From: Olsenella sp. KGMB02461
GTDB taxonomy: Bacteria; Actinomycetota; Coriobacteriia; Coriobacteriales; Atopobiaceae
Assembly: GCF_012584445.1 (NCBI RefSeq)
Contig: NZ_JABAHI010000008.1
Coordinates: forward strand, 434,001 to 498,000
Length of the DNA stretch: 64,000 nt
Direction: 5' to 3'
The notes beneath the pieces were generated by a model that saw only the letters and a program-made list of their open reading frames with translations, was not told the origin of the DNA and did no database searches. This document shows positions 1-14,644 of the stretch, in pieces. A program made the translations under genes and the position numbers. Every line of letters begins with the position of its first letter. Position 1 is the first letter of the stretch.

Positions 1-115
1 TGCGGTTGTGCAACTCCCAATTCTGCAGGAGCATTGAGCGCACTTCACCGATCTCCCGATTAATTCTGTCCACTGCTGCAGTTTCACGGCGAGCCACATT
101 TTCAGAAGACGGCAC
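1..115 (-). CDS. possible 3'-truncated (by window edge) helical protein
   Basis: The minus strand is open from a GTG at 115 to the left edge of the window. The GTG follows a purine-rich GGGGGGAGG at about 12 bases. The visible residues include a charged helix (AVDRINREIGEVRSMLLQN) that looks like real protein rather than noise. Upstream of the GTG the same frame stays open and hydrophobic to an in-frame TAG near 181, so this could also be the surviving part of a longer, broken gene. No family is recognised. The call rests on residue character alone and is weak. Confidence 0.3.
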   Translation of the reverse strand, partial: MPSSENVARRETAAVDRINREIGEVRSMLLQNWELHNR

Positions 116-764
116 AAAACGCCTATACCTCCCCCCTATGACATTTAGATACAGCAAACCTCCAATGCCATAGATAAGCTACTCATGGACAATCTTGGTA
201 ACACGGCCTAGGCCACCACCAGAACGCATGGACCATTTAACAGAGGCGATTTTTTCAGCCACAAGGACACCTAATGTATTTTTTCAATTATAGATCTTCT
301 GGAGTAGCACCTAGGACAAAGGGCTATGGTCCCTGCGACTCATGGAAATACCCTGGACTCGATGAGTTCCGGAATCCAATAAAGCCGCAATATTGCACTG
401 CCTGGATCCAAGAGCTCTATCACTGAAAGATGCCCTGCTTCATGACAAGCGCTATGAGCGCAACGTATGTAGTCCCACGCACATGCGCTCTCTCGCTAAT
501 CTATTACCTTTTCGCAAGCAGACCAAGTTGTTCCTTCAGCATGATCCTGGAGCGTCTTCAAGAGTTCCTCGGTAGTAGTGAGCTTGTGTCATTGAAGCGG
601 CTACAGGTGAACCACCGGCTACACAGCAGAGACATCAGGAGCAAATCATCGTGATTCAACCCTCGATATCATGCCGATTTGCTCCAAGGTTGCTCTTCTA
701 GAGGACGTTTTGTCTGAGCCAATACCTTGAATAGGAAACAACAGAATCTAGAAGGAGGTTGGCA
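116..764. other. non-coding or decayed stretch left of the recombinase
   Basis: No convincing gene is visible on either strand. Short open frames exist (for example around 393-575 and 430-654 on the plus strand) but lack a good ribosome-binding site and have no recognisable composition. The stretch is closer to the AT-richer accessory composition than to the core, and may hold eroded remains of an earlier mobile element. Confidence 0.4.
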
Positions 765-1382
765 ATGGATAGTACAACATATGGTTATGCTCGCGTTTCG
801 GCTAAAGATCAGTATCTCGACAGGCAGATCATCGCCCTCGAGGAATTTCCGGTGCGAAAGGACAAGATATACGCCGATAAGGCAAGCGGCAAGAATTTCG
901 ATCGCCCGGCATATAAGCAGCTGGTCTCCAAGATCAATCCAGGGGATGTGATTGTTGTTAAGAGCATTGACAGACTCGGGAGAAACTACAACGAGATACT
1001 CGAGGAGTGGCGCTTTATCACAAAGGAGAAGCAGTGCGCGATAGTGATCATCGACATGCCTCTTCTCGACACACGGGTGATATCAGGCGGATTGACCGGG
1101 GTTTTCATAGCCGACCTCGTCCTTCAGATACTCAGCTACGTTGCGCAGGTCGAACGTGATAACACCAAACAAAGGCAAGCCGAAGGCATAGCAGCGGCAA
1201 AGGCTCGAGGGGTCCGTTTCGGTAGACCCCCTAAGAAGCGGCCAAAGAATTACATGGAAGTCAAGAAAGCCTTTCTTACGGGAGTATTAACGCGAAAAGA
1301 GGCGGCGGCCAAGTTGCAGGTCGGAACAACAACGCTTTCAAAGTGGATCAAAGAAGACGGAAACCAACATGTTTACCGATAG
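765..1382 (+). CDS. small serine recombinase (resolvase/invertase family)
   Basis: The protein (205 aa) has the resolvase catalytic N-terminus YARVSAKDQ with nucleophile Ser12, the SIDRLGRN arginine segment near residues 65-72, a long E-helix (VERDNTKQRQAEGIAAAKARG) and a C-terminal helix-turn-helix (TRKEAAAKLQVGTTTLSKWI). Length and domain order match the small resolvase/DNA invertase type rather than the large serine integrases. ATG 765 is chosen over the in-frame TTG 759 because GGAGG at 754-758 sits six bases from the ATG. It probably catalyses site-specific resolution or inversion of nearby DNA. Its neighbour downstream is the peptide-maturase operon, and a strong inverted repeat covers its stop codon. 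Whether it moves the island or switches it cannot be told from sequence. Confidence 0.9.
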   Translation: MDSTTYGYARVSAKDQYLDRQIIALEEFPVRKDKIYADKASGKNFDRPAYKQLVSKINPGDVIVVKSIDRLGRNYNEILEEWRFITKEKQCAIVIIDMPLLDTRVISGGLTGVFIADLVLQILSYVAQVERDNTKQRQAEGIAAAKARGVRFGRPPKKRPKNYMEVKKAFLTGVLTRKEAAAKLQVGTTTLSKWIKEDGNQHVYR

Positions 1383-1402
1383 TCAACTTGTTGGTTTCTG
1401 TC
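1356..1402. repeat. 14-bp inverted repeat over the recombinase stop codon
   Basis: Arms 1356-1369 and 1389-1402 (GACGGAAACCAACA and TGTTGGTTTCTGTC) are complementary with one G-U pair, leaving a 19-base spacer that contains the recombinase stop. No T-run follows, so it is a poor intrinsic terminator. It could be a recombinase-binding site or an RNA hairpin at the end of the transcript. Confidence 0.6.
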
Positions 1403-1748
1403 GTTCCACCGATAAGGCATTATGCTCTATCCGATAAGTCAAACTCCCATGGGCAATCGATGCCATTCTCTACATACATAGACCCAGGTCGAGCGGCGTT
1501 GGTTGGGATGCAGATGCGACGGCTCCCGAAGCGATATTGTCCTGCTTTTGTGCGGCGATTCGGTAATAACTACACGTGTGCCTAGCTTTCAGAAGATTCT
1601 CGGCAAACGTAAAAGTAGACATTTTCGTCTATCCGAAATAAAACGGAAATGGTTAACGATCGATCTAAAAACTCTAGTTAAGGATTGTAGCAGATAATTA
1701 AGGTACTCCCTTCCGCAAATGTCTACCTTTACGGAAGGGGTGAGAAGA
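1403..1748 (+). promoter_or_regulatory. upstream region of the peptide-maturase operon
   Basis: No gene is seen between the recombinase and the radical SAM gene. The stretch holds a direct repeat CCGATAAG at 1409-1416 and 1431-1438, 22 bases apart (two helical turns), a small inverted repeat TAGAC/GTCTA at 1616-1631, and the hairpin at 1708-1739. The operon promoter must lie here unless it is read through from the recombinase, but no clear -35/-10 pair stands out. Confidence 0.4.
1708..1739 (+). promoter_or_regulatory. hairpin that would cover the ribosome-binding site of the radical SAM gene
   Basis: Arms CCCTTCCG (1708-1715) and CGGAAGGG (1732-1739) form a perfect 8-bp stem. The 3' arm is the purine-rich sequence GGAAGGGG (1733-1740) that best serves as ribosome-binding site for the GTG at 1749. 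Folding would hide it, so translation may be conditional. Confidence 0.5.
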
Positions 1749-3140
1749 GTGACTACACCATACAAAGTTTCTAAATATATCATTAGCCAGCCGCTCGATG
1801 AACATTCTATGCTGGTCTACAGCACACTCACCTCATCCCTTGTGTTATTGGAAAATGATCTGTACACAACCTATTTCGAAAACGCCTCTTTTGAAGACGA
1901 ATCCCTATGCCGACAGCTTGAAGAGATGGGCTTTTTGGCCGATGCTCAGCAGCCATCTCAGCTGTCTCAGCTATTGGACATAAGGAAGAGCGTCGTTGAG
2001 ACCGATGGCATTACGAGCATTACGATCGCACCGACGATGGAATGCAATGCAAGGTGCTATTACTGTTTCGAACGCGGCGCAAGGCGCGGGACGATGAGCC
2101 TTGAAACCGCCGATGCCCTCGTTGATTTCCTTGATAAAAACTGCCTGTCGCGAGAGTTGTATATCGCTTGGTTTGGCGGCGAGCCTCTGCTTGCTACTGA
2201 TGTGATAGACCACATAGTCGATGGTCTTCTCGATCGAGATATCTATGTCGAATCAACAATCACAACCAACGGGATACTGACCAACGAGAAACTTCTTCAG
2301 AAGTTCAAAAAGTGGAATGTCTCGCGAGTGCAGATCTCTCTTGACGGTATCGGCGATGCGTATGGAAGGATAAAGCGCTTCGAGAACATCGAGGGTGACC
2401 CTTTCGAGCTAATCGTTGGGATAATCTCGATGCTGCTCGATTCGGGGATGAGTGTCCATATCCGACTCAACTACAAGAGCACCGATGAAAGCGAAGTCAA
2501 GGAAGCTTTCGACTATTTCCACCGACGCTACGGTAGCCATGAAAACCTTTACCTGTATGGAGCGCCTCTCGACCTCCCTGAGATCAAGGGGTACTCAGAG
2601 TTCGATCGTGAAGAAGGCGACATCTTTCATAACGTGCTTCGAATGTCGCTCGATCACGGATACGAAAATGACGAGCTGAATTATCGCGACGGTGTGAACA
2701 TCTCGGAAGATTACAACGTTGCCCTTGGTGAACTTATGTTATCGCCTTTCCCCGCTTCGTGCCTCATGGCAGACAGGTGGAGGTTCGTCGTAGACGACCA
2801 AGGCATCCTGTACAAATGCCAAAAGCACCTCGGAAAGCCCAAATACTCCTGCGGTGACGTATTCGGTGGCTTGAAGGAGAACGCATATTTCAAGTACTAC
2901 GCAACCAGCGAACTTCATGACGAGTCATGCGCCGACTGCCCGATTTTCCCAATCTGCCAAGGCGGATGCAATGCGAATCGACTTCTGTACGGCGACAAAT
3001 TCGCATGCCCGCCGTCAAAGACAATCATGAAAAAGCTTGTCATGGACTACTACAGGCTTCTGTCCGACGACCATCGGGACGGAGAGGATATGGCAATCGA
3101 GATGCCACTGGAAGGAGGACAAAATGAGGATTATCTCTAA
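1749..3140 (+). CDS. radical SAM/SPASM peptide maturase
   Basis: The radical SAM core has the CX3CX2C iron-sulfur motif CNARCYYC (about residues 99-106 from GTG 1749), followed by the WFGGEPLL S-adenosylmethionine-binding segment. The C-terminal third is Cys-rich (CADCPIFPICQGGC plus further Cys at CLMADRW and KYSCGD), the SPASM pattern that binds auxiliary clusters. Such enzymes modify ribosomal peptides, typically making Cys thioether or carbon-carbon links. GTG 1749 is preferred over ATG 1719 because GGAAGGGG lies eight bases upstream, while ATG 1719 has no site at normal spacing; if ATG is used the protein is 473 aa. The start VTTPYKVSKYI also fits peptide maturases. Its last 17 bases overlap the precursor gene in another frame, a strong sign that the two work together. 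The exact bond formed is not predictable. Confidence 0.88.
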   Translation: MTTPYKVSKYIISQPLDEHSMLVYSTLTSSLVLLENDLYTTYFENASFEDESLCRQLEEMGFLADAQQPSQLSQLLDIRKSVVETDGITSITIAPTMECNARCYYCFERGARRGTMSLETADALVDFLDKNCLSRELYIAWFGGEPLLATDVIDHIVDGLLDRDIYVESTITTNGILTNEKLLQKFKKWNVSRVQISLDGIGDAYGRIKRFENIEGDPFELIVGIISMLLDSGMSVHIRLNYKSTDESEVKEAFDYFHRRYGSHENLYLYGAPLDLPEIKGYSEFDREEGDIFHNVLRMSLDHGYENDELNYRDGVNISEDYNVALGELMLSPFPASCLMADRWRFVVDDQGILYKCQKHLGKPKYSCGDVFGGLKENAYFKYYATSELHDESCADCPIFPICQGGCNANRLLYGDKFACPPSKTIMKKLVMDYYRLLSDDHRDGEDMAIEMPLEGGQNEDYL

Positions 3141-3237
3141 GGTAACGAAGGAGAACGCCCTTAAGGAGCTCAAAACCCGGGCAATGGCTTGCTCGCCACA
3201 CTCCATGTGCCCCAAGTGTCTCCGTGGACGTGGTTAG
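3124..3237 (+). CDS. ribosomal precursor peptide, Cys-rich core, LRGRG tail
   Basis: This 37-residue peptide starts at ATG 3124 behind GGAGG and overlaps the end of the radical SAM gene. It has a basic leader-like N-terminus (MRIISKVTKENALKELK) and a core holding three Cys, ACSPHSMCPKC, ending CLRGRG. A tiny Cys peptide directly after a SPASM enzyme is the usual layout of sactipeptide or ranthipeptide-type RiPP loci, so it is very likely the maturase substrate. The Leu-Arg-Gly-Arg-Gly end resembles the ubiquitin tail Leu-Arg-Leu-Arg-Gly-Gly, and an E1, E2-like protein and JAMM protease follow. That it is adenylated at its C-terminal Gly is inference. A palindrome lies seven bases after its stop. 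Confidence 0.8.
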   Translation: MRIISKVTKENALKELKTRAMACSPHSMCPKCLRGRG

Positions 3238-3243
3238 ATGCCA

Positions 3244-3267
3244 GGAAGGGCGCACGTGCGCCCTTCC
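3244..3267 (+). promoter_or_regulatory. perfect 24-bp palindrome after the precursor gene, likely attenuator or mRNA stabiliser
   Basis: GGAAGGGCGCAC is followed directly by its reverse complement, and AGATG/CATCT at 3236-3240 and 3267-3271 could lengthen the stem. There is no T-run, so full termination is unlikely. A partial terminator or 3' stabiliser here would raise precursor dosage above that of the downstream enzymes, as in many RiPP operons. The GGAAGGG word is shared with the hairpin at 1708-1739. Confidence 0.6.
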
Positions 3268-3352
3268 ATCTCAATCCTCGCTTTAAACATTTAACGCAAT
3301 CGGGGCCGCATCCGCTCCGAAACGATATCGAGCATATCCCTAAGGAGGAACG

Positions 3353-3544
3353 ATGATATACGCCCCTTATATTCGCCTCGCATCGAATGCCGATGCCGCA
3401 GCGGCAAAACGGAAAGAGATCGCGGAACGCCTTCGTAAGGGAGAAGAGGTCCGCATCACGAACTCTGGGCAGGTTGTTGAGCCGACAAATCCCGAAGCAG
3501 TCGGCGGCAAGACCCTCAAAGCCCCTGAAGGCAAGCTAGCTTAG
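3353..3544 (+). CDS. small 63-residue protein of unknown function
   Basis: The gene starts at ATG 3353 with AAGGAGG at ideal distance and lies between the precursor and the E2-like gene. The sequence predicts a short strand (IYAPYIRLA), a charged helix (residues about 13-30), a strand (EEVRITNSGQVVEP) and a flexible end. A Val-Gly-Gly occurs at about residues 50-52 with an eleven-residue tail after it. That arrangement recalls ubiquitin-like precursors trimmed by a JAMM protease, but the protein is shorter than a beta-grasp domain and no homology is recognised. It may instead be a second peptide substrate, an adaptor or a regulator. Function unknown. Confidence 0.75.
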   Translation: MIYAPYIRLASNADAAAAKRKEIAERLRKGEEVRITNSGQVVEPTNPEAVGGKTLKAPEGKLA

Positions 3545-3553
3545 GGGCGAGAA

Positions 3554-4018
3554 ATGAGCGGATTCTACTGGTATCAAAGAAACCCGCAGCTCTTCGAAGC
3601 GGAAAAGCTTGCCATGCGTGAGAACTTTCCTAACTTCACACTGGAAAGACTCGAAGACGGAAGAATTTGCTGGGTGGGCGATCTGAACCCACGCGGAGAC
3701 ACTGGTGGGGTTTGGACCCTTATGGTCGTGTACGACCATAACCACCCTCACAACAACACGTATGGAGGCTCCCTCAGGGTCTACTCGGTCAAGCCAGACC
3801 TGAACGACCTCTACAGGGCCGCAGGATCCTTGCCTCATGTGCTGCGCGATGCTAATGGCGATTTATACATGTGCACCGCCAGACCCGAGGACGTCGACTC
3901 GGGAAACGTTGCGACCTCTGCTGCGAAAGCACTCGGATGGGCTGCGAAATGGATATTCATTGTTGAAGAGTGGCTAGAAGGAGACCTTGGAGATGAAGTC
4001 TTCAAGCATACTTACTAA
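3554..4018 (+). CDS. E2-like (ubiquitin-conjugating-fold) protein
   Basis: The 154-residue protein follows the layout of prokaryotic E2-like families: an N-terminal helix, a strand meander (RICWVGDLNP, GGVWTLMVVYDHNHP, SLRVYSVKP), then a His (His95 in LPHVL) followed by a candidate catalytic Cys107 in GDLYMCTA, and C-terminal helices with Trp133 (KWIFIVEEWLEG). The His-x11-Cys spacing and the dG.L.mC pattern are what E2 proteins show around the active Cys. It lies directly before the JAMM protease and E1 genes, whose products are its expected partners. Expected role: accept an activated peptide or ubiquitin-like protein from the E1 as a thioester. The assignment is by pattern; a structure-based comparison would settle it. 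Confidence 0.68.
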   Translation: MSGFYWYQRNPQLFEAEKLAMRENFPNFTLERLEDGRICWVGDLNPRGDTGGVWTLMVVYDHNHPHNNTYGGSLRVYSVKPDLNDLYRAAGSLPHVLRDANGDLYMCTARPEDVDSGNVATSAAKALGWAAKWIFIVEEWLEGDLGDEVFKHTY

Positions 4019-4976
4019 TATCGGAAGCCGCCTAGCATCCGACAGATGCAAACCAAAGGTCGTTTTCTCGGCTCGTGCATATGCGACGTTGCTCTCGGAG
4101 GTACTGGACGAGGTTAAAACCGAAACGGGCGGTGTGCTGCTCGGTTATTGGGACAATGGTGTCTGCCAAGTGGTCGAGAGCATCGATCCCGGTCCTTCCT
4201 CGCGTTTCGAGGTCGCCTATTTCGAATACGATCAGGACTACGTCAACCATCTCATAAACAAGGTGTCGAGAATATACGATAGGCAACTGGACCTCGTAGG
4301 GTTGTGGCATCGTCATCCTGGTTCATTTGACAGGTTTTCAGCAACCGATGACGAAACAAACCTGAAGTACGCGTCTTTGAGCGATCATGGCGCTATCTCT
4401 GCGCTGGTGAACATTGACCCTCATTTCAGACTGACGGTCTATCACGCCATGGCACACCCCCTCCGTTACGAAAGAATCCCCTATGAGGTGTTGGAGCGCT
4501 GCAATGACAGCATTCAGGCACCCTATTCGAATGCCCCAAAGCGAGTGCTCCAGATTGAAAGGGCGCTAAACAAATCGTCGGCCTCCCACGAAACCAAAGG
4601 CCAACCTAATACACTTCATTCGAAATCTGTTCGTGAAGCACTGGAAGCCTTCTTAGCGAAACGTGCGACGTCAGAGATGGCCAACGTTCAAATTGGGACG
4701 GTTGAGACATGGGCAGATGAGGATTTCATCCTTCTTCTTTCTGCATTAGAGAGTGATTTGGGCGAGCTCGAGAAAAAGGGCATCGGTACTACCCTGCAGC
4801 CGGATGGATGCAGACAGCTCACCTTGGTTGCGGAAGACGGATATGGGGATTCGTCAAGAGTCATCGAGGGATTCCAAATTTTTGATGATGGGAAGATACT
4901 CTTCTTGATTGAGGGTCAGACCTACTTCTACAAACCGGGACTGCTCTCTCTGGCATGTAAGGACGCCTCGCTATGA
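3993..4976 (+). CDS. JAMM/JAB (Mov34/MPN/PAD-1) metallopeptidase with extra C-terminal domain
   Basis: A complete JAMM zinc-peptidase signature is present: Glu44 in TETGGVLLG, then WHRHPGSFDRFSATDD with His106, His108, Ser116 and Asp119 (H-x-H-x7-S-x2-D). The family cleaves isopeptide or peptide bonds after ubiquitin-like tails. ATG 3993 is chosen because AAGGAG lies nine bases upstream; a TTG at 3987 is too close to it. The gene overlaps the E2-like gene by 26 bases and the E1 by 4, so the three are translationally coupled. Residues about 215-327 form an additional domain of unknown nature. It may deconjugate a modifier, or process the 63-residue protein or the matured peptide. Confidence 0.9.
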   Translation: MKSSSILTNIGSRLASDRCKPKVVFSARAYATLLSEVLDEVKTETGGVLLGYWDNGVCQVVESIDPGPSSRFEVAYFEYDQDYVNHLINKVSRIYDRQLDLVGLWHRHPGSFDRFSATDDETNLKYASLSDHGAISALVNIDPHFRLTVYHAMAHPLRYERIPYEVLERCNDSIQAPYSNAPKRVLQIERALNKSSASHETKGQPNTLHSKSVREALEAFLAKRATSEMANVQIGTVETWADEDFILLLSALESDLGELEKKGIGTTLQPDGCRQLTLVAEDGYGDSSRVIEGFQIFDDGKILFLIEGQTYFYKPGLLSLACKDASL

Positions 4977-6130
4977 TGCTTTCCTCTGACGCCAGAAGAC
5001 AGATAAACAAGGCCCTTGTGCCCGAAGCGGTATTTGAAGATGGTTACGCCGGGGAGTTGAGGGCGAGCTTCCATGCCTCATCGGGCATTCTCAACATATA
5101 TCCATGCGATGTTCCCATAGCAGAAGAAGGCTTACTTAGGGGATGCTGTGACTTCCCGGACCGCAACTTGGAAGATGGGACGGATTACGATTTCCGCATC
5201 GTTCTTGATGAGGAATGTAAGAGGTCGGTTCTCTTCCGGGGCGAGAAGTACGAGGTGCAACCGTATGACTTGGTTCAAAACGTGTTCTCAAGGAACGGCG
5301 GCCTGATAGAGTCGGAAATAATGGCGGATAAAGCCGTGGCGATCTTTGGCTGTGGTTCTGTAGGGAGTCTGATTGCACTGGCGCTTGCACGCGTTGGAGT
5401 GGGCAACTTCCTGCTTGTCGACAATGACGTGCTTGAGTATCACAACATCTGCAGGCATCAATGTGGCATTCACGAGGTCGGTGAGTATAAGGTCGACGCA
5501 GTGAAAGCCCGAATCCTAGACATCAACCCAACAGCCCATGTGGAAGTGTGCGCAACGCTGGCAGAATACGCTCCGAAGGCGCTGTGGGATCGATGGGTCG
5601 GCGAAAAGCGAGCCTTGTGCGTCGGATGTGCGGACAACCGCGAGGCTGACGTATATGTGAATGGACTGTGCCTGTACTACTCGTCACCGTTTGTCAGCAT
5701 CGGCTTCTGGGAGAGGGCGTTTGCCGGAGAGATTTTCTACTGGCTTCCTGATTCGCAGATGACTTGCTACAAGTGCGCCCTGGGCGACGGCTCGCTTACC
5801 AGCAGAAACTCCGCTAGAAGGAGACTCTACACGACTCAAGAAAAACTAAAAGACGTCCATTTCGAGCCGGGAATCGCTGTCGATATCGATTTTGTCACAA
5901 ATATTGGGGCAAAAGTCGCCATAGACATCCTCAATATCGGCAATGACCGCTTCACGCAAAGGCTACTCCCAGAGCTCCAGCAATATACGCTTGTCTGTAA
6001 CACCAACAATCCTGCCATAGGTGGGAAGATGGCAGAGATATTTAGCTATCCATTGCAGGTGACCACTTCCTTAAAAGTCACTCCTCTACCTGGCTGCGAT
6101 TGCTGCAAAGAAGATGGAAGACATGAGTGA
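4973..6130 (+). CDS. ThiF/E1-like adenylating enzyme
   Basis: The Rossmann-type adenylation domain starts near residue 121: VAIFGCGSVGS (nucleotide loop 126-131), acidic VDNDVLEYHNICRHQ with Asp150 and the Arg finger Arg161, Lys173 in EYKVDAV and Asp221 in GCADN. Zinc is probably held by CYKC (265-268) and CDCC (375-378). A separate ~110-residue N-terminal domain precedes it. E1 enzymes of this family adenylate the C-terminal Gly of ubiquitin-like proteins, or of a short peptide as in MccB of microcin C7. The ATGA overlap with the JAMM gene and the adjacent E2-like gene indicate one conjugation or processing module. No large catalytic-Cys domain is visible, so thioester formation on the E1 itself is uncertain. 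Confidence 0.9.
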   Translation: MMLSSDARRQINKALVPEAVFEDGYAGELRASFHASSGILNIYPCDVPIAEEGLLRGCCDFPDRNLEDGTDYDFRIVLDEECKRSVLFRGEKYEVQPYDLVQNVFSRNGGLIESEIMADKAVAIFGCGSVGSLIALALARVGVGNFLLVDNDVLEYHNICRHQCGIHEVGEYKVDAVKARILDINPTAHVEVCATLAEYAPKALWDRWVGEKRALCVGCADNREADVYVNGLCLYYSSPFVSIGFWERAFAGEIFYWLPDSQMTCYKCALGDGSLTSRNSARRRLYTTQEKLKDVHFEPGIAVDIDFVTNIGAKVAIDILNIGNDRFTQRLLPELQQYTLVCNTNNPAIGGKMAEIFSYPLQVTTSLKVTPLPGCDCCKEDGRHE

Positions 6131-6365
6131 CTCATATGCATGCGAAGAGCTCCAAAGCCTCTGCGCCGAAATGGGCTATGCCCTTGTCAGCTTGAGATCC
6201 AAATGGGAACCCCTGCTGGCAGATGCTCCCGATGATCCGAAAATCCAAGAGATTGACGAAAAGTGCATGAGGCCACTGAAGATCGACTGTCTTCAACTAA
6301 TCAGATCCCTACTTAATCTCGCGAACGCACTGAACGATCCTCTCATGAGCAAGGTGGTTTCCTAA
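6114..6365 (+). CDS. small helical protein of unknown function
   Basis: The 83-residue product is predicted almost wholly helical, with two helices around residues 8-35 and 43-80 separated by a Pro/Asp-rich turn (DAPDDPKI). The first part overlaps the end of the E1 gene by 17 bases; ATG 6123 is an alternative start three codons in. Size, the two-helix layout and a position directly before an EssC-like ATPase are compatible with a WXG100-like or chaperone role, but the Trp-x-Gly motif is absent. No family recognised. Confidence 0.7.
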   Translation: MEDMSDSYACEELQSLCAEMGYALVSLRSKWEPLLADAPDDPKIQEIDEKCMRPLKIDCLQLIRSLLNLANALNDPLMSKVVS

Positions 6366-6366
6366 C

Positions 6367-9300
6367 ATGGCAGTGTTCAGTTACGAGAAGGCCCCAGAAC
6401 TAATCGGCTCGATCAATGAGCTTATCGCGCGATGCGAGGCGGAGATCAACGATGCGTTTACCTATTACGCCGGCATGCGGACAGAAGTCGAACAATCCGT
6501 GGATGAGAGCCGTCGGAGCGTCGAGACCGATTTGGGCAAACGCCAAAGCATTAGAAATGCGGGCCTGGACCAAATGCTCGCAAAATGCCATGAGTACGCC
6601 AATTATATTAAGAATCTTAACGATGAGGTCCGTCGTGACTCGAAGGCCTATCAGAAAGCCTGCGCAGAGATCGAGTGCTCAGAAATCCATCAGCCTCAGT
6701 ATTCAATAGAGACCCTCGATCAGTGCCAGCAGAAGCTTCACGAGCTGTCTGAGCAGGCCAAGTATTCACATGGACAAATTGTTAACACTTCTGGAATTGG
6801 CGGTCTTATCGGCACGGTTAGCGGTGAGTCGAAAAGGAATCACACTGCGTTGATCGATGCCTACAAAAGTAGCAAGGATGTACTCCTACGCGCGACAGCC
6901 CTTGTTGCCGACATCAAAAGAACCGAAACCGAAACGAACAGAGTATTGGCTGACTCGAAAGTCGAAGCCGCAGAAAGGGAGGGTGCCGATCTGCTGGAGC
7001 AGATTGAACGGCAGGAAAAGATCGCTATAGATACAAGCCTCGACCTTCTAAGCAGGCAGCTTGACGAGCTGATACCTTCCGCCACGATTGATGATCTGGG
7101 TGAGCTTGCCGAGCTCGCAGCTCCTGCAGCCAGCAATGTGCCCCAGGGACTATGCCAGCAACTTTTTCTGGGCAGCTATTCGTATGCGATTCATGGCTGG
7201 CCGTTTACAGATCACAGGTCAGGGATAGATCATATTCTCGAAAGCCACTTTGGTTCTTGGTATAGGTCGGGGCGTATTTACGCCCCTGCACTGTTGGACA
7301 GAGCCGAATCGTCCAGCATCATACTGTGCGGAGATGTCGAGGTAACTAATCCCGCACTCAATTGGCTCATCGTCTCTGAGCTAGAGACCAATCAGGCTCT
7401 TGACCAGACTTTCGTCTTCATAAATCCGAGCGGCGACAGAACAGTATTCGAGCCATTCCTTGCTGCCGTGAAGGAATGCCACGAGGTGTTCGGGGAGAGG
7501 GTGATAACGGAGAGCGAATCTGCATCGGCAGTCCTAGCAAAAGCCGTACGTGCAATTGACGACAGGAACCAAAGACTGCTGATCGGTTATAGGAACGTAT
7601 TCGCGTTCAACGAAGACGACAATACAGCAGAGCTACCCCTTATAACCATATGCATGTCTGCGAATCTTAAAGAGATTGCCAAACGGGATGCGGAGGCGAT
7701 AAAAAACATAGTTCGCAACGGGTCGTTCTGCGGCGTCAACATCCTGCTGGCTCTCGATGTGAATAGCTCGAATACCGACGAGGCCACTGATTTCCTGGCC
7801 GATTGCGGCAGGGCGACGATCGGGTGGCCGAACAAGGGAGAGCTCACATTCGATGTTGGCAATGACGTAGAAGTCAGATATAAGCTCGTCGATTCCAAGA
7901 GGCTGGCGTCCGATCTCTCCCGTGTTCAGGAGCAGGTCAAGAACAAGCTCTCGCAGAGCGTGAGCATCGAGTCGGTATTCCCTGCAAACACGTGGCATGA
8001 GGGCAGCACGTTACGAGGGCTCGCCATACCAATGGGCAAATCCCCCGATGGCAGCTGCGTCTCGCTTGAGTTCGGACCCGAGGTGAGCAACGGGATATCT
8101 CATTTTGGCCTAATGATAGGCGCCACTGGATCGGGCAAATCCTCCCTCCTGCATTCTCTAATCATCTCAGCCCTGTTGAAGTACGGGCCAGATGAGCTTC
8201 AGCTGTATTTACTTGATTTTAAGAGTGGTGTCGAATTCGAGCTCTACTCAAAATATAGAATTCCTCAGCTCAAACTCCTTGCCCTCGATGCCATGCAGGC
8301 ATTCGGCCTAAGTGTGCTCAAGGAGCTCATGCAACAGATGGACGAGAGAAACCGGCTGTTCAAAGACGCAGGGGTTGGCAATATCGAGGAGTATCGTATC
8401 AGCACGGACTATGCAATGCCTAGGATCCTTGTGCTCATGGATGAATTCCAAACCCTCTTCAACGAGGATCACGATAGGCGAGCCGCGAGAGAGGCGTCAG
8501 TTCTGCTGGCGGACTTTATATCCTTGGCTAGAAACTGCGGAATACACTTCCTTTTATCGACGCAGACCCTCAGCAGACTCCGTACGGGAAATTTCAGCGT
8601 AAGCCAATCGACGCTAGACGAGATGCACGTAAGAATAGGATTACAGTGCGCACTAAGCGAAACGGAGAAGATCTTCGGGGATATTTTTGGGAAGCAGGCC
8701 TACGATTTGATGGGTTCCCAAAAGGGCAGTGGCGTAATGACCGAAAACGACCTCAAGCTGCCCCCGCACGCTTTTCGAGCAATCTTTTGCGACAAAGAAG
8801 AGCGCGCTGAGCTCCTGAAGATTGTCGAGAGCCGTTATTCGGCTATCAATCTGCTCGCGAGCACACGGGTCTTCAGAAGCGACACGGTTCCCGATATCAG
8901 GGACGGGATGAAGACTCATATGGCCTCGTCCGCGAACTTGTCAAGAAGCATCCCTGTTTTTCTGGGAGAGCCAATAAGGATCGGCCCGCCGATTGTCCTC
9001 AATATCAACCGACGCATGCGCTCAACCTTGCTCATTGCAGGCAGCGATGGGAACATGCTTGACTCGTTGGTGGCAAATTACCTGTTCTCGGCCTTCTCCG
9101 CAAAAGAAAAACAAGATTCAGAAGAAGTCACGCATGCCCCATATCCAACGGTGTACCTATGTGATGGCCACGCCATAGTAGGAGAACCGGTGAGTGACCT
9201 TCTAGCTAGAGTCTGCGCGGGCAAGGACGAGAACGTCAAAATCGCAAGAACCAACGTCGAGGTGCTCCACTTCATCGACGAGCTATACAGAATAATGACG

Positions 9301-9795
9301 GAAAGGCAGAGCAGCAGAGACGCCACGTCCCAAACAATTCATTTCGTGATAAGCGAATATCAGTGGATGGATTCGTTTCTCGCCATCTATGAAAGACGAG
9401 ATAGCCAATATGACGAAGACTCTAGGGTGACACACGCTGAAGGCGATCCAGATGCGATGCTCAACGAATTGGTGAGCAGCCTTTCGCGTCCCGCTTCTGG
9501 GAACGACGTAAGAAGACTCGAAAAGCTCGAGCGTCTCATTCAGCGTGGCTATACATACGGGATCAATGTCGTCGTGGGAACCACGGACTTCGCATCTCTG
9601 CGAGAGAGGTTGTACGACCTTGTACCCAACATGCAGAACAGGATCGTCTTCTCGCTGAGCGAGGACGATGCCGAGAGGATAGTACGCGGCTCATTGGGCC
9701 TTGTGGAAACGCTCAGGCCAAACATGGCGATTTTCACTGACGGACGCGGTAGTGAGCCCGTGGTGTTCAAACCTTATCGCATTTCAACGATCTAG
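6367..9795 (+). CDS. FtsK/SpoIIIE/EssC-like ATPase, soluble form
   Basis: The 1142-residue protein begins with about 240 residues of coiled coil, followed by a nucleotide-binding-like region without a clear Walker A, then an intact FtsK/HerA domain: Walker A GATGSGKSS at 585-593 with the typical LLDFKSGVEFELY after it, and Walker B ILVLMDEF with Asp692-Glu693. A third degenerate ATPase-like part follows (LLIAGSDGN near 895; VVVGTTDF near 1070). The three-unit plan resembles EssC/EccC of type VII (ESX) secretion. Unlike those, no transmembrane helix or FHA domain is visible, so it would need a membrane partner such as the gene at 10547. It is flanked by small helical and WXG100-like genes, its expected cargo. 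Confidence 0.88.
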   Translation: MAVFSYEKAPELIGSINELIARCEAEINDAFTYYAGMRTEVEQSVDESRRSVETDLGKRQSIRNAGLDQMLAKCHEYANYIKNLNDEVRRDSKAYQKACAEIECSEIHQPQYSIETLDQCQQKLHELSEQAKYSHGQIVNTSGIGGLIGTVSGESKRNHTALIDAYKSSKDVLLRATALVADIKRTETETNRVLADSKVEAAEREGADLLEQIERQEKIAIDTSLDLLSRQLDELIPSATIDDLGELAELAAPAASNVPQGLCQQLFLGSYSYAIHGWPFTDHRSGIDHILESHFGSWYRSGRIYAPALLDRAESSSIILCGDVEVTNPALNWLIVSELETNQALDQTFVFINPSGDRTVFEPFLAAVKECHEVFGERVITESESASAVLAKAVRAIDDRNQRLLIGYRNVFAFNEDDNTAELPLITICMSANLKEIAKRDAEAIKNIVRNGSFCGVNILLALDVNSSNTDEATDFLADCGRATIGWPNKGELTFDVGNDVEVRYKLVDSKRLASDLSRVQEQVKNKLSQSVSIESVFPANTWHEGSTLRGLAIPMGKSPDGSCVSLEFGPEVSNGISHFGLMIGATGSGKSSLLHSLIISALLKYGPDELQLYLLDFKSGVEFELYSKYRIPQLKLLALDAMQAFGLSVLKELMQQMDERNRLFKDAGVGNIEEYRISTDYAMPRILVLMDEFQTLFNEDHDRRAAREASVLLADFISLARNCGIHFLLSTQTLSRLRTGNFSVSQSTLDEMHVRIGLQCALSETEKIFGDIFGKQAYDLMGSQKGSGVMTENDLKLPPHAFRAIFCDKEERAELLKIVESRYSAINLLASTRVFRSDTVPDIRDGMKTHMASSANLSRSIPVFLGEPIRIGPPIVLNINRRMRSTLLIAGSDGNMLDSLVANYLFSAFSAKEKQDSEEVTHAPYPTVYLCDGHAIVGEPVSDLLARVCAGKDENVKIARTNVEVLHFIDELYRIMTERQSSRDATSQTIHFVISEYQWMDSFLAIYERRDSQYDEDSRVTHAEGDPDAMLNELVSSLSRPASGNDVRRLEKLERLIQRGYTYGINVVVGTTDFASLRERLYDLVPNMQNRIVFSLSEDDAERIVRGSLGLVETLRPNMAIFTDGRGSEPVVFKPYRISTI

Positions 9796-9815
9796 AGAGA
9801 AAGGGACGTAACAGT

Positions 9816-10088
9816 ATGTCCAATTCAACATCAGCCGAAGCAATGACCAGGATGATTACAAGCATTACGAAAACCATTCAGGCAGAACAAGCAGTAGTCA
9901 ATTCGCTCAGGCAAGAGTACCAGGTGATCGGGCAGGAATGGAACGACGCACAATACGAGAACCTTGGTCCGGTAATTGACGATGCCGTGAGGGAGCTGAG
10001 TGGGAATCAAGCGAAACTCAGCGAATGCATAACCAAGCTACAGCTTCTCAGGGCGAAGCTCGAAGAATACCTGAACACGAGTCTGTGA
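9816..10088 (+). CDS. WXG100-like (ESAT-6-like) small helical protein
   Basis: The 90-residue protein has two long helices joined by a turn at EWNDAQYEN, with Trp near the middle followed by NDAQY instead of the classic Trp-x-Gly, and a hydrophobic heptad pattern on both helices. Size and position right after the EssC-like ATPase fit the WXG100 family of type VII substrates. GAGAAAGGGA upstream serves as ribosome-binding site. It could be secreted cargo, or a helper that delivers cargo to the ATPase. The missing Gly keeps the call tentative. Confidence 0.72.
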   Translation: MSNSTSAEAMTRMITSITKTIQAEQAVVNSLRQEYQVIGQEWNDAQYENLGPVIDDAVRELSGNQAKLSECITKLQLLRAKLEEYLNTSL

Positions 10089-10097
10089 TAGGTCACT

Positions 10098-10559
10098 ATG
10101 GCGGAATCAAGAAACATAGCTGCCGAGTTGTACGAGCTAGGAAGGGCCATATCTGACTATGGGGCAACCCTGACCCAAATCGTCACGAAGGCGTATCGGA
10201 TAGTCGAAGACATTGACGCGGAGCTCGATAGAGCCATGAAGTCCGCTGCTGACATGGCAAACGGCTGGGGACTTGACCGGGAATCGGCAGACTATCAGGT
10301 CCAGAGACAAGCCATGGCGGAATTATACAGGCAGTTAGAGGCAGCGTCCCAAAAGTACCGGGAAGCAAGGTACGAGTTTCTCTCAGCTACTTCCAATGGA
10401 GCTGGAGCACACGACTGCTTTAAGGCGCGTTCATCGTTGGAGAGGCTTGCTAGTGCGCTGGAGGCATATTTCGGAGTACAGCTCCTTGAAGATTCTGACG
10501 CAGGGAAACCTCCGTCTCAAAAGTTATATAAAAATGTTTACTCAAAATGTCGATTATAA
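10098..10559 (+). CDS. coiled-coil protein, possible ESX-type partner or substrate
   Basis: The 153-residue product is helical throughout, with heptad repeats over residues 5-60 and 65-95 and a third helix at 108-125 (CFKARSSLERLASALEAYFG). It starts nine bases after the WXG100-like gene. The N-terminal two helices have the length of a WXG100 domain, which makes an LXG- or WXG-type long substrate or chaperone possible, but no diagnostic motif is present. It ends in a basic tail that overlaps the next gene by 13 bases. No family recognised. Confidence 0.72.
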   Translation: MAESRNIAAELYELGRAISDYGATLTQIVTKAYRIVEDIDAELDRAMKSAADMANGWGLDRESADYQVQRQAMAELYRQLEAASQKYREARYEFLSATSNGAGAHDCFKARSSLERLASALEAYFGVQLLEDSDAGKPPSQKLYKNVYSKCRL

Positions 10560-11098
10560 GGGAAGATTCAGCAGAAATGTCAATTAGGATCAGCGAAGAT
10601 GGAAGCATCATCTCTTCAGAAGGGGAGATTCAACAGGGACAGAACCCCCTGATTGGGGAAGACGGAAGCATCAGGCTCGGAGAGCAGTCTGCTCCTGCCA
10701 GTCGATCGACGTACAATGGGATAAGAAGACCCCCGTCTTCACCGTTATCGAATTCGGCCGATGATCAGCAGGCAATCCCATCTTCTGAGACGAACGCCAA
10801 CACTCTGCCGTCGAGACATGTCACGTCATGCGGAAGCTCTCGGCAGGCAAGTACGATCGAATTCGAACTCCAAGTCAAAAAAGCCGAATTGGGCACGTGC
10901 GTTCGCCCTGCTCCTATCGTGGTTTGTGTGATTTTCATCCTACTTTCGATACTGCTGTCCTCCTTTTACCCGGCAATCGTCTCCGCATGTGCCGCTGTGT
11001 TCGTGGTCAAGGATCTAGTAAGAAGGAGCCAGGTTGCCGCTGAGGTGCAACATCTTGAAAGCGAGCTGAGTATGGCGCGGAGCGGAGGCACGCAATGA
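10547..11098 (+). CDS. membrane protein with acidic repeat N-terminus and two transmembrane helices
   Basis: Residues 1-120 are polar and probably disordered, with a repeated EDGSI element (SEDGSIISSEGE and GEDGSIRLGEQ). Residues about 122-155 contain two adjacent hydrophobic helices (VVCVIFILLSILLSSFY and PAIVSACAAVFVVKDLV), followed by a short charged helix. ATG 10547 overlaps the previous gene; ATG 10577 with AAGGGAAG upstream is a reasonable alternative. It is the only evident membrane protein of the operon and so the best candidate for anchoring the soluble FtsK/EssC-like ATPase. Homology unknown. Confidence 0.78.
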   Translation: MSIIREDSAEMSIRISEDGSIISSEGEIQQGQNPLIGEDGSIRLGEQSAPASRSTYNGIRRPPSSPLSNSADDQQAIPSSETNANTLPSRHVTSCGSSRQASTIEFELQVKKAELGTCVRPAPIVVCVIFILLSILLSSFYPAIVSACAAVFVVKDLVRRSQVAAEVQHLESELSMARSGGTQ

Positions 11099-12522
11099 GC
11101 GAGTTTGATTCCATATCTGTCGAACAACTTATTAAGACAGCAGAAAACTGCCTCGAGAAGAATTCTGAGGCTTATGATCCAGTCAAGGCCGCCGATTTGC
11201 TTCAAAAGGGAGCCAATCTCGGAAGTATGGCTTCTCTCGAGAAGCTTGGCGACTGCTACTTCTACGGTACGGGGAGAGACGAGGATAACAGGGCAGCTTT
11301 TGAGGCTTACACAAAGGTATTTGAAGCTACGGGCAACAGCTACAGTGCATACCAGCTCGGGCGTATGCATACGTTCGGATGGGGTGTTGAATCTAACCCC
11401 GACAAAGCGAGGGACTATTTAGAGAAGTCATGGGCCGATGGTTATGCAGCCGCAGCGGGGATTCTCGGTGTCATCTGTTTGGATCGTGCAAAACTGACGC
11501 ATGACGAGAAAGACGTCGAGGAGGGTTTGAAGTGGCTCCAAAGGGGATCAAACCAAGGAGATCCGTATAGCATCTTCCGTATGGCACTTGTTTTCTCAAT
11601 CGGTGACTGTGGCATTCGAGAAGACAAGAAGAGGGCATACGACCTTCTCATGAAGGTGCCTGACTATCCCCGTGCTCTCGGATACCTCTTAATCAGCAAT
11701 GGTCTGGACATTTGCAGCAACGACCAGTACTCCGAACTTCTCAATCGCGCCTTAGATCTCGCAGAGTCCACCAACAAAGGCATGCTGTTCAGAAGTCTCG
11801 GCAGAGTATATGAGGGTAATACACGCCTGCCCGCAGATCCGAAAAAGTCCGAAGAGTATTTCATGAGAGCATTGGATGCTGGAGATGGCTATTCGGGTTA
11901 TATCCTCGGAAACAACTATGCATATGGATGGAACGGATACCAGCGCGATGTCGACAAGGCAGAGACGATATACCTCAAAGGAGCAAATCTAGGTTCCGAG
12001 GAAGCAATGTCCTCTCTTGGCGATCTGTACAAAAAGAGAGCAGAAGTTGTTTGGCCTCGGGACCCTGAGATCATGAGACTCTCCTTTGAATGGTATGAGA
12101 AGGCATATAAAGCCGGCGGCGGGGCATCGGACGCTCTGCATGCCGGGCAGGCAGCCCTGGAAGCGCAGGATCCTTCTCTGGAAGAACGGGCTGCAGAATG
12201 CTTCAAGGTTGCCATGGAGGACGATATTCCTTGGGCGTATGTTCCGCTAGCAAAGCTCTCAATTAAAGAAGGAACCCCAACGTATTGTCCGAAGCTTGCA
12301 AGACAGGCTTTGGAGAAGGCGCGCGCTGAGGAAACCGACGATTACATGACCGGCGAAGTTGACTACCTAATTGGTTTCATGTTCGAACGAGGACTTGGCC
12401 TGCCCGCCTCAGCAAATCAGGCTGTCGAGTCTTACATCAAAGCTTCAGACAAAGGGTGCGAGGAGGCAAAAGAGGCCCTCAAGGGCTTCAGGAAGGGTCT
12501 CTTTGGATGGAAAAGGATCTAA
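11095..12522 (+). CDS. Sel1-like repeat protein (475 aa)
   Basis: The protein is built from tandem 36-residue alpha-alpha units of the Sel1/TPR type, recognisable as LGDCYFYGTGRDED, LGRMHTFGWGVESN and LGNNYAYGWNGYQRD followed by KA...Y.KA..LGS. Such solenoids act as protein-interaction scaffolds. There is no signal peptide, so it is probably cytoplasmic. It is coupled to the membrane-protein gene by an ATGA overlap. In this operon it could organise the conjugation or secretion partners; that is inference. Confidence 0.88.
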   Translation: MSEFDSISVEQLIKTAENCLEKNSEAYDPVKAADLLQKGANLGSMASLEKLGDCYFYGTGRDEDNRAAFEAYTKVFEATGNSYSAYQLGRMHTFGWGVESNPDKARDYLEKSWADGYAAAAGILGVICLDRAKLTHDEKDVEEGLKWLQRGSNQGDPYSIFRMALVFSIGDCGIREDKKRAYDLLMKVPDYPRALGYLLISNGLDICSNDQYSELLNRALDLAESTNKGMLFRSLGRVYEGNTRLPADPKKSEEYFMRALDAGDGYSGYILGNNYAYGWNGYQRDVDKAETIYLKGANLGSEEAMSSLGDLYKKRAEVVWPRDPEIMRLSFEWYEKAYKAGGGASDALHAGQAALEAQDPSLEERAAECFKVAMEDDIPWAYVPLAKLSIKEGTPTYCPKLARQALEKARAEETDDYMTGEVDYLIGFMFERGLGLPASANQAVESYIKASDKGCEEAKEALKGFRKGLFGWKRI

Positions 12523-12540
12523 TCAGAGAAGGGGATCGAT

Positions 12541-13392
12541 ATGGGAATGAGTTCTTTCGATGCGCTGCTTGAGGAAGTCGTCGCAACGATGGATATGAAG
12601 GGTCCATATGCGGCAATCGAAAAACTTGAAGCGCTGAAGGCAGAAGGTAACGTTGAAGCAACTGCTTGTCTCGGGCGGTTTTATCTCCAAGGAATTGGTG
12701 TAATTGAAGATGTTGAGACGGGCGTCGACCTTCTTGAAGAAGCAGCCAACGCCGGGTGCCCTCAAGCAGACGTTTCACTTGGAAGGCTCTTCTTATTCGG
12801 TGAGTCCCTTGTGTCACAAGACGCTTCAAAGGGGCTTCTCCACCTTGAGAAGGCCGCAAATGCCGGCCTTTCTGAAGCAATGGGGATTCTTGGCGACATC
12901 TACTTTTACGGCTACGAAGGCCTTGAGACAGATCCGGAGAAGGGTCTCGAGTGGGGTATGCGCGCTGCAAAACTGGGTGACATTACTGGGCACCTGATTT
13001 GCGGCGATGCCTATTTTTACGGAACGGCTACTGCGGAGAACATTCCGCTCGCCACCTATCATTACAGGGAAGTTCTTAACGCGGAGCCCGAAAACACCAA
13101 CGTGATGTGCAACCTCGCCGTGTGTCTTGCTGATCCGACCGACGATCAATGGGTAATGCCGACGCAAGCCGATCTGGTAGAAGCGCTCGGTTTGCTAAGC
13201 CGTGCGGTCGAGCTGGGTGATGTCAGGGCTCATTTCAACCTAGGAATCCACTACGCAAACGGCGTCGGAGTCGATCAGGATTACGACCTCGCCCACCACT
13301 ATATCGAGCTTGCTGCCAACAACGGCTACGAGCCTGCGCAAGAAGCACTTGGGTCATTCAGGCGAACCATGAGAGGCAAATGGACGCTCTAA
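12541..13392 (+). CDS. Sel1-like repeat protein (283 aa)
   Basis: A second Sel1-repeat solenoid, with units such as LGRFYLQGIGVIEDVETG, LGRLFLFGESLVS, LGDIYFYGYEG and LGIHYANGVGVDQDYD. It begins 18 bases after the 475-residue Sel1 protein, with AGAAGGGG as ribosome-binding site. The two share the family but not close sequence identity, so they look like an old duplication with separate partners. No signal peptide or membrane segment. Confidence 0.88.
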   Translation: MGMSSFDALLEEVVATMDMKGPYAAIEKLEALKAEGNVEATACLGRFYLQGIGVIEDVETGVDLLEEAANAGCPQADVSLGRLFLFGESLVSQDASKGLLHLEKAANAGLSEAMGILGDIYFYGYEGLETDPEKGLEWGMRAAKLGDITGHLICGDAYFYGTATAENIPLATYHYREVLNAEPENTNVMCNLAVCLADPTDDQWVMPTQADLVEALGLLSRAVELGDVRAHFNLGIHYANGVGVDQDYDLAHHYIELAANNGYEPAQEALGSFRRTMRGKWTL

Positions 13393-13395
13393 CTG

Positions 13396-13425
13396 GTTAT
13401 TTCCGCATGAGGCGGAGTAAATAAC
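13396..13425 (+). repeat. hairpin between the Sel1 gene and the last operon gene
   Basis: GTTATTTCCGC (13396-13406) pairs with GCGG..TAAATAAC (13412-13425) with a small bulge. No T-run follows. It probably forms an intercistronic RNA hairpin that stabilises or separates the messages for the Sel1 protein and the orphan at 13449. Confidence 0.45.
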
Positions 13426-13448
13426 ATCGTTCGAGAAAGGAAACACAA

Positions 13449-13925
13449 ATGATCAAGCTCAAAGACTTAGAACAGATGGGCAACGTCACTTTCGGAGACG
13501 CAGGCGATGTCACCCTTCAAAACATCAAGGAAGCCATAACCGACCTCGCCCAGCAAAACGGTGTACCTGTAGCTTTCTATACCGATGACGCGAAAGACGG
13601 TGGGCTTTTTGGCAATACCTACACTGCATTGGTGGCATATCATCCGGAGCATCGAAACGACTACTTCAACATGGCAATGCTCCTTACTAAGCAGGGAAAC
13701 TTCGGAACTGTTACCGTGTATGCAGCAGGCAAGTCCAAGCAGATGAATAAGTTTGCACGGTCCGAGACGGCGAGGGAAATGCGCCGGGGTCAGTCCATGT
13801 CTTACCAGATTGGCAACATGATCTCGAGCGGACTCATGAACATGGGAAAGAGCAAGCAGAAGCTTCAAGAAGAGCAGGCATATTACGAAATCATCCTGAA
13901 CGTAATCGACGCCGCCCTCAACTAG
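13449..13925 (+). CDS. orphan 158-residue protein, last gene of the operon
   Basis: No family is recognised. The predicted fold is mixed: an alpha/beta N-terminal half (LQNIKEAITDLAQQNGVPVAFYT, TYTALVAYHP, GTVTVYAAG) and a helical C-terminal half rich in Met, Gln and Lys (residues 100-158). There is no signal peptide. GAGAAAGG lies at good distance from ATG 13449. The strong terminator 65 bases downstream makes it the end of the transcript. An effector, immunity or chaperone role would be typical of the last gene in a secretion cluster, but nothing in the sequence proves that. Confidence 0.8.
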   Translation: MIKLKDLEQMGNVTFGDAGDVTLQNIKEAITDLAQQNGVPVAFYTDDAKDGGLFGNTYTALVAYHPEHRNDYFNMAMLLTKQGNFGTVTVYAAGKSKQMNKFARSETAREMRRGQSMSYQIGNMISSGLMNMGKSKQKLQEEQAYYEIILNVIDAALN

Positions 13926-13989
13926 TAAAATACGGTTCGTGTGTTACGGCTCAAGATTTTTCTGCCGGTAGGCAATAGATTGTACTAGG

Positions 13990-14034
13990 AGCTGCCCCTC
14001 GGGAGTGATTTTTCCGAAGGGCAGCTTAGTTTTC
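13990..14034 (+). terminator. intrinsic terminator closing the accessory operon
   Basis: AGCTGCCC-TCGG (13990-14003) pairs with CCGA-GGGCAGCT (14014-14026) with single-base bulges, followed by TAGTTTTC. It ends the thirteen-gene transcript. Confidence 0.85.
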
Positions 14035-14644
14035 TGGCATTATGCATTTCCCTCGGCACACTCGGCGGATGTCTCTCAGCAAATTCTTTATTATGCAGGT
14101 GACGCAGTATTGGACGAACCTTCTGGAGGTCTCTGTTACGGCCTTCCTCCGCTTCGAGCTGAGCATGCAGTATCCCCCCGCCCCACTTGTTCCATAATTC
14201 CCACCGCACTCCCCCATGCAGCAGAACCTTTTGATGTATCACGGGAATCCTATTGCGCTGGACACCTTCCCGACAGCACGACATCATAAGAACTTGTGAG
14301 AAAGGATTGAAGAAGCTGCGCCTAAGATCTCATGTCGTTTGTTGCCGTATCTTTCTCACAGGTTCAGATGCGACCGTCCGAGGGCGGGGCAACAGGAGGA
14401 CCGCCTGACCACAAACGCCTCGCTGTGCGCACCGGGGCCCTCGAGGCAACTCCTGAGGATCGATGCGGTCGGCTGTGGACATAGACCACCAATGCACCTG
14501 TCCTATTGTGCGTTACCGTGACAGGTCCGTCTCTTGACCTCACTAACTCGGTAGACTTCACTGTATTATTCACGCATCGAAACGCACTTTGGCATTATTA
14601 CCTTCTTAGTGGTCAAATCGCACTACATAGAGGCAAAGCTCGAT
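14035..14644. other. right border of the island, no gene seen
   Basis: Open frames on the minus strand between 13985 and 14290 have no start signals and an odd composition rich in His, Arg and Trp, so they are not called. An imperfect inverted repeat (14 of 15 bases) lies at 14290-14304 and 14351-14365, GAACTTGTGAGAAAG against CTTTCTCACAGGTTC, with 46 bases between. It could be an operator or a remnant of a mobile-element end. Composition shifts to the core type by about 14640. Confidence 0.45.

Follow-up and report, generated by a model that had tools for sequence, protein, structure and literature searches.

A short candidate tag, its putative conjugation enzymes and a soluble EccC-like ATPase on an acquired island of Olsenella sp. 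KGMB02461

In the Pup-proteasome system (Mpa/ARC) a helical tag of roughly 60 residues ending in GGE or GGQ is attached by the ligase PafA and removed by Dop, and the ATPase that acts with it belongs to the AAA class and carries an N-terminal coiled coil. In the cyclic-oligonucleotide-based antiphage signaling system (CBASS), the E1-E2 protein Cap2 uses a Gly or Ala at the C-terminus of cGAS, a protein without a ubiquitin fold, to conjugate it, and a JAB enzyme, Cap3, cuts at the C-terminus of the conjugated protein (PMC10097602). Ten subtypes of type VII secretion system (T7SS), T7SSa to T7SSj, have been described, including T7SSd of Olsenella (PMC11217815), and an ATPase type resembling theirs was noted in 2012, in a table footnote, as "mobile versions of T7SS" (PMC3482391). 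Here we analyze a locus in a 64,000-nt stretch of the genome of Olsenella sp. KGMB02461 (the window, to which all window coordinates refer) that encodes a soluble EccC/EssC-like ATPase of this already known type together with E1-, E2- and JAB-type enzymes and a 63-residue protein, p63. The new part is p63 and the conjugation cassette joined to the ATPase, which lie outside the coordinates covered by an initial annotation of the locus. We favor, with a probability of roughly 0.55, the interpretation that the locus encodes a mobile conjugation-and-motor system that works inside the cell in conflict or regulation, and not a secretion system.

The initial annotation began at the ATPase gene; the gene set extends left to position 3353, adding the candidate mini-modifier, E2, JAB and E1, and includes p83 as a second small conserved gene. 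The genes in question are as follows.

3353 to 3544, forward strand: p63, an unannotated 63-residue candidate modifier, with the ribosome-binding site AAGGAGG
3554 to 4018, forward strand: E2-like conjugating enzyme of 154 residues, predicted catalytic Cys107 (PADLOC CBASS E2, 9e-14)
3993 to 4976, forward strand: JAB/JAMM metalloprotease (isopeptidase) with an extra C-terminal region, alternative start at 3987 (Prok-JAB, 9e-8)
4973 to 6130, forward strand: E1/ThiF-type activating enzyme of 385 residues (ThiF, 5e-27)
6114 to 6365, forward strand: p83, a small helical protein between E1 and the ATPase, conserved in position and weakly in sequence
6367 to 9795, forward strand: soluble EccC/EssC-like ATPase of 1142 residues, comprising a coiled-coil hairpin, a pseudo-ATPase, an active ATPase and a second pseudo-ATPase

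The E2, JAB and E1 genes lie upstream of the ATPase gene on the same strand and partly overlap. The AlphaFold2 model of the E2 (predicted local distance difference test score, pLDDT, 76) matches best the Serratia CBASS E2 (8yjy; Z 9.1 over 131 residues), with the folds of TSG101-UEV and UFC1 close behind, and all 14 members have Cys107. None of the 14 has a significant E2 match in Pfam, and a search of Protein Data Bank sequences with the E2 profile returned nothing significant; the E2 assignment is therefore drawn from the PADLOC models and the fold only. The JAB protein is recognized by PADLOC as well (3e-12), and its H106, H108, S116 and D119, which make up the HxH...S..D signature, are invariant together with an ETGG motif in all 11 copies. 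The E1 matches PADLOC models of CBASS E1-E2 proteins down to 4e-30. All three enzymes are thus detectably homologous to those of type II CBASS, whose E2 is also the best fold match. If p63 is the conjugated protein, its Ala end would correspond to the single Gly or Ala in which the CBASS substrate, a protein lacking the ubiquitin fold, ends (PMC10097602). Unlike in type II CBASS, however, E1 and E2 are separate genes, the window set is linked to an FtsK/EccC-like motor and WXG-like proteins, and the locus has a dedicated protein of 60-78 residues instead of a CD-NTase; no cyclase was found among the operon proteins scanned, the sole Cyclase match (0.06) being the E2 itself.

p63 comprises a helix (DAAAAKRKEIAERLRKGE), a hairpin (VRITNSGQVV) and a C-terminus, APEGKLA, that directly precedes the stop codon, and has no significant match in Pfam or NCBIfam. 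Its gene is separated from that of the E2 by nine bases. Besides the window, we inspected the region upstream of the E2 in 13 homologues of the locus, taken from bins of Coriobacteriia, Clostridia, Blautia and Holdemania, from two IMG/VR contigs and from genome G134; gene calls in these loci are approximate, coming from a codon-usage script. A free-standing p63 lies directly upstream of the E2 in 13 of 13 loci including the window, G134 being the exception discussed below. The homologues, of 60-78 residues, share a basic helix rich in alanine and a short hairpin and carry P-x-G-x-L-A at the C-terminus (with an extra Ala in one copy), and every copy has an Ala at its end or at a predicted processing point. 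The N-terminus of the homologues (window 3353-3400) often repeats the C-terminal pattern as VP-x-G-x-x-A-A, as if they had once been tandem copies.

p63 is under strong purifying selection. The ratio of nonsynonymous to synonymous substitution (dN/dS) between the window and locus L063 is close to 0.05. Synonymous sites are saturated in most of the other pairs (pS 0.66-1.07, pN 0.02-0.22). In seven loci the final ten residues are the same, TLKAPEGKLA, with codons that differ at most positions, by synonymous changes only. In a profile survey of p63 and E2 across 397 genomes of the order Coriobacteriales, strong p63 matches (E < 1e-28) occurred in seven, each of which also had a strong E2 match; the p63 model was trained on these same loci, and the informative part of the survey is the lack of strong matches elsewhere. 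A weak match in G339 (L069), within a large, unrelated-looking frame, was set aside. No homologue of the E2 was found in the phage and plasmid collections (E 1e-3).

Two loci carry p63 in a form that suggests processing. In L054 (1907-2260) the p63 frame runs past GKLA into a DnaJ-type zinc-finger extension, a possible natural tag precursor for the JAB enzyme. In G134 three tandem p63-like repeats, each ending QVVAA and the second and third about 70% identical, form the N-terminal part of a fusion with the E2 (L068:12164-13315, minus strand), as would be expected of a processed poly-tag precursor; the neighbors of this gene include a 997-residue AAA protein and no EccC-like ATPase. The similarity between these repeats and the p63 of L055 is reached by 0-0.2% of shuffles. 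A different interpretation would give p63 a regulatory or antitoxin-like role, as a small subunit or peptide with a C-terminal docking motif, the E1, E2 and JAB enzymes modifying another protein of the operon. CBASS, which conjugates a full enzyme and has no separate tag (PMC10097602), provides a precedent, and a DGTI-type hairpin motif is common to p63 and membrane proteins of the operon. We nonetheless regard a purely regulatory p63 as unlikely, given that the invariant Ala at the extreme C-terminus, the precursor with a zinc finger after GKLA and the fusion of tandem repeats to E2 are expected features of a processed tag, whereas the other operon proteins, by inspection, vary at their C-termini. 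That p63 is conjugated at all appears probable.

A Mesorhizobium plasmid (L095:5775-6337) has a 57-residue open reading frame (ORF) directly before an E2 gene, with a helix, a VPIQILPNGEIR hairpin and the end LGGEY; a ThiF gene lies nearby and a patatin gene downstream. The two proteins look alike by eye, but the profile comparison with p63 was not significant (E 0.13, probability 0.5%) and we do not count it as a relative; it may be another short tag.

The ATPase matches FtsK_SpoIIIE (2e-25) and EccCa (1e-29). Its AlphaFold2 model, built from 11 sequences (mean pLDDT 79.7), has at its N-terminus a long coiled-coil hairpin (residues 9-251), after which come three ATPase-like units (about 265-505, 540-830 and 860-1140). 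The three-unit region superposes on the cytoplasmic domain of EccC (4nh0; Z 25, 730 residues) and on EssC (4lya; Z 26), and the middle unit on FtsK (Z 29). Intact Walker A and B motifs (GATGSGKSS and LVLMDEF) are confined to the middle unit, in which they and the surrounding residues are conserved over the 11 sequences; the other two units are degenerate. No segment reached the threshold of 1.6 in Kyte-Doolittle hydrophobicity in the window ATPase or 10 homologues, against four in the organism's own FtsK as a control, and family scans gave no match to an FHA domain. The ATPase is thus predicted from its sequence to be soluble.

Type VII genes were sought with family profiles throughout the genome (2.19 Mb, 99.9% complete). 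EssA, EssB, EccB and the YukD/EccD-type ubiquitin domain had no match each (EccE was not searched), and two EsaA-like N-terminal matches (C12:104-107 kb) were rejected as YhgE/Pip proteins that score far better to TIGR03061/62. The only FtsK-class match besides the ATPase is a DNA translocase, and the sole WXG100 signal, below cut-off, is p90, encoded downstream of the ATPase. Among eight other genomes that bear the ATPase or the cassette, seven show at 1e-6 no FtsK-type ATPase except an FtsK-sized protein (834-978 residues) and, where there is one, the copy of the system itself; the eighth, G229, has one further FtsK-type relative of 1108 residues, which is unclassified. The initial annotation had described an EssC-like ATPase with three ATPase-like units but neither transmembrane helix nor FHA domain, in a set lacking EsaA-, EssA-, EssB-, EccB- and EccD-type genes and with a 183-residue protein, p183, as its only membrane-bound member. 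Each of these descriptions is confirmed, the absences now holding genome-wide (for EsaA, of a true EsaA), and p183 is the sole convincing membrane protein of the operon, the hydrophobic peak of the E1 being its Rossmann strand. Its suggestion that an export pore might be supplied from elsewhere fared worse: a borrowed type VII pore is unlikely because the searches of the genome turned up none of the type VII core genes sought.

Three genes directly follow that of the ATPase.

9816 to 10088, forward strand: p90, a WXG100-like helical protein in which EWND replaces WXG
10098 to 10559, forward strand: p153, a helical protein at a variable effector position
10547 to 11098, forward strand: p183, a membrane protein that has DGSI hairpin motifs in its N-terminal part and a hydrophobic hairpin in its C-terminal part

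p90 matches WXG100 (0.05) and TIGR03930 (0.01) weakly, below cut-off, with W-[N/D]-D instead of W-x-G, and is conserved beside the ATPase in other loci, in L038 also where E1 and E2 are lacking. At the p153 position L052 has a longer protein with a C-terminal PF15644 Gln-deamidase papain-fold toxin domain (6e-10), L054 a separate PF15644 ORF (1e-4), and L053 a protein that, judged solely by eye, looks like a papain/C39-like peptidase in its C-terminal part; downstream of these effector genes lie small candidate immunity ORFs. The position therefore looks like a polymorphic effector slot beside a WXG-like partner. p83, on the other side of the ATPase, has matches in L061, L063 and L055 (tblastn/blastp) and genes of similar size in the same place in L052-L054 and L058; library scans gave no family match. 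Membrane proteins of these operons with p63-like N-terminal hairpin motifs (KVTVGPDGTIH) occur at window 10547-11098, L052:9121-9648, L055:18357-19654, L057:5054-5953 and L058:18642-19076. A matrix trained on p63 ranks them above other proteins as a class (p 3e-6), although the sequences are related to each other.

This neighborhood is also what a stripped-down type VII-like exporter could contain, with the ATPase docking via p183 and exporting p90 and an effector of the p153 class under regulation by the E1, E2 and JAB enzymes. The homology to EccC/EssC spans all three ATPase units, p90 is WXG-like, p183 is a membrane protein, and papain-fold toxin effectors with small candidate immunity ORFs recall LXG toxin loci. 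The likeness to T7SSa-T7SSj extends to the pairing of an EccC/EssC-type ATPase with a small helical protein and to toxin-bearing candidate substrates; however, in all the described systems the ATPase is membrane-bound and has four predicted NTPase domains, and most also include a YukD-type ubiquitin fold that is not conjugated (PMC11217815), whereas neither is present here. The FHA domain and transmembrane stalk are absent, EssA, EssB, EccB and YukD genes were not found genome-wide, p183 is small and variable, and the same ATPase class has been reported in Gram-negative lineages (PMC3482391). We consider an exporter of this kind rather unlikely. The 2012 systems share the ATPase architecture and the WXG-like protein but were listed from other phyla, in a footnote silent on E1/E2/JAB, p63 and the coiled coil (PMC3482391).

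In the conjugation-and-motor system that we favor, the E1 would adenylate the C-terminal alanine of p63 and pass p63 to Cys107 of the E2, which would attach it to one or more clients, candidates being the effector at the p153 position, p90, p183 or a protein of an invader. The JAB enzyme would mature p63 precursors and remove the tag. The motor, with its middle ATPase active and the coiled-coil hairpin in place of a membrane stalk, would bind WXG-like partners, tagged clients or both and remodel or release the clients, so that an effector is switched on or off by being held or released; the outcome would probably be a defense or conflict response. If the parallel with Pup and Mpa holds, the tag could be received by the motor's coiled coil.

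Several points weigh against this interpretation. The conjugation of p63 is a prediction; the shape of p63, an alanine-rich helix and one hairpin, is read by inspection; its similarity in the window copy to the G134 repeats is modest (0.8-1.8% of shuffles reach it); and no toxin domain was recognized in the window p153. Moreover, G144 and G146 (L056 and L057) keep p63, E2, JAB and E1 with a DGTIHV membrane protein but have no ATPase of this kind, their only FtsK-type ATPase being FtsK-sized. Conversely, G133 (L038) joins the same ATPase-p90 pair to kinase, vWA-like and PP2C-like genes (the last two by eye), and G083 (L039) joins a related ATPase to Hsp70, a J-domain/TPR protein, a p158-type protein and a radical SAM protein; E1 and E2 were not found in the regions read of either genome. 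The ATPase is therefore not obligatorily tied to the tag, and the system consists of two modules that can occur apart, the tag cassette and the set around the soluble EccC-like motor; in the window and nine other loci they are joined. A related soluble ATPase and helical-protein set with kinase, vWA and PP2C genes is also found on a Caballeronia plasmid (the L038, L039 and L003 group).

The initial annotation had offered, as an alternative to a minimal or borrowed pore, that the ATPase does another job such as pulling modified proteins apart. This option fits better, in that E1, E2, JAB and the candidate tag are co-inherited with the ATPase, although the two near-complete genomes that keep the cassette without it qualify the association; pulling modified proteins apart is a proposal. 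The odds are roughly even, in our estimate, that the locus represents a new class of tag: a mini-modifier of 60-78 residues with a non-ubiquitin fold, a C-terminal alanine and its own E1, E2 and JAB, produced in one lineage as a tandem poly-tag fused to E2, and joined on mobile islands with a soluble EccC-like motor whose substrates are the tagged clients. If p63 is conjugated, bacterial E1, E2 and JAB enzymes of the CBASS type would serve a dedicated tag that is smaller than ubiquitin and apparently lacks the ubiquitin fold, and the enzymes rather than that fold would be the conserved core. The soluble EccC-like ATPases of "mobile T7SS" would gain a testable intracellular job, and their lack of a pore would be explained.

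The roughly 60-residue helical tag and the ATPase with an N-terminal coiled coil recall Pup, a functional parallel only. The enzymes here are E1 and E2 and not PafA, JAB and not Dop, the ATPase is of the FtsK and not the AAA class, and p63 ends in GKLA and not GGE or GGQ; no PafA is encoded in the operon, and the genome was not searched for it. The FtsH-ternary conflict systems, in which fusions of a ubiquitin-like protein (Ubl) to E2 occur with E1, RING E3 and JAB, are comparable in their conflict context and in having a tag-E2 fusion with presumed release by JAB, as in G134; they differ in that the Ubl occurs with EAD1 and caspase-like effectors, and in that they have not been described with an EccC-like ATPase (Kaur et al. 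2020, PMC7159879). We found no report of p63 or of the combination of the ATPase with E1, E2 and JAB in the open-access literature, subscription papers and preprints being outside the scope.

The operon, a gene set of gut bacteria, lies on a recently acquired island that carries several further genes.

1 to 14473 in the window, beginning about 1.18 kb to its left: acquired island, 15.65 kb in total
759 to 1382, forward strand: serine recombinase/DNA invertase, a probable mobility gene (phrog_125, 1e-52)
1719 to 3140, forward strand: radical SAM/SPASM protein, accessory (Radical_SAM, 1e-16)
11095 to 12522, forward strand: Sel1-type repeat protein 1, family by inspection, with homologues after p183 in L052-L054, L061 and L063
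12541 to 13392, forward strand: Sel1-type repeat protein 2, family by inspection, 54% identical in L061 and L063
13449 to 13925, forward strand: p158, a conserved protein, 68-70% identical in L061 and L063 and 44% in L039 with another ATPase set

The radical SAM protein bears on a third alternative, in which the ribosome makes p63 as a peptide product, or as the precursor of one, and the E1, the JAB and the radical SAM enzyme process it in place of its serving as a protein tag. The SPASM protein adjoins p63 and resembles the maturases of ribosomally synthesized and post-translationally modified peptides, and E1-like enzymes take part in some peptide pathways. Its gene was found, however, only in the window, in L063 (57% identity, after p158) and in L039, which lacks E1 and E2, and not in the other E1/E2 loci; p63 is not Cys-rich; and neither an E2 with an invariant Cys nor a fusion of repeats to E2 has an obvious role in such a pathway. 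We therefore judge a peptide product very unlikely.

The left junction of the island and window position 14474 bound a break in colinearity with G028, a genome of the same genus with flanks 94-96% identical, in which the island replaces a block of 3.4 kb. The GC content of the island is 0.51, compared with 0.62 and 0.57 in the flanks. Integration linked to a tRNA gene was considered and rejected, there being no tRNA at the island junctions. A 298-residue ORF at the left end (L086:16952-17848) looks by eye like a small endonuclease. A 63% homologue of the serine recombinase lies directly upstream of p63 in L061, a contig from the viral collection. In L061 and L085 the system, on an IMG/VR contig, adjoins genes that by eye are phage-like and DNA methyltransferase-like, and this copy is possibly prophage cargo.

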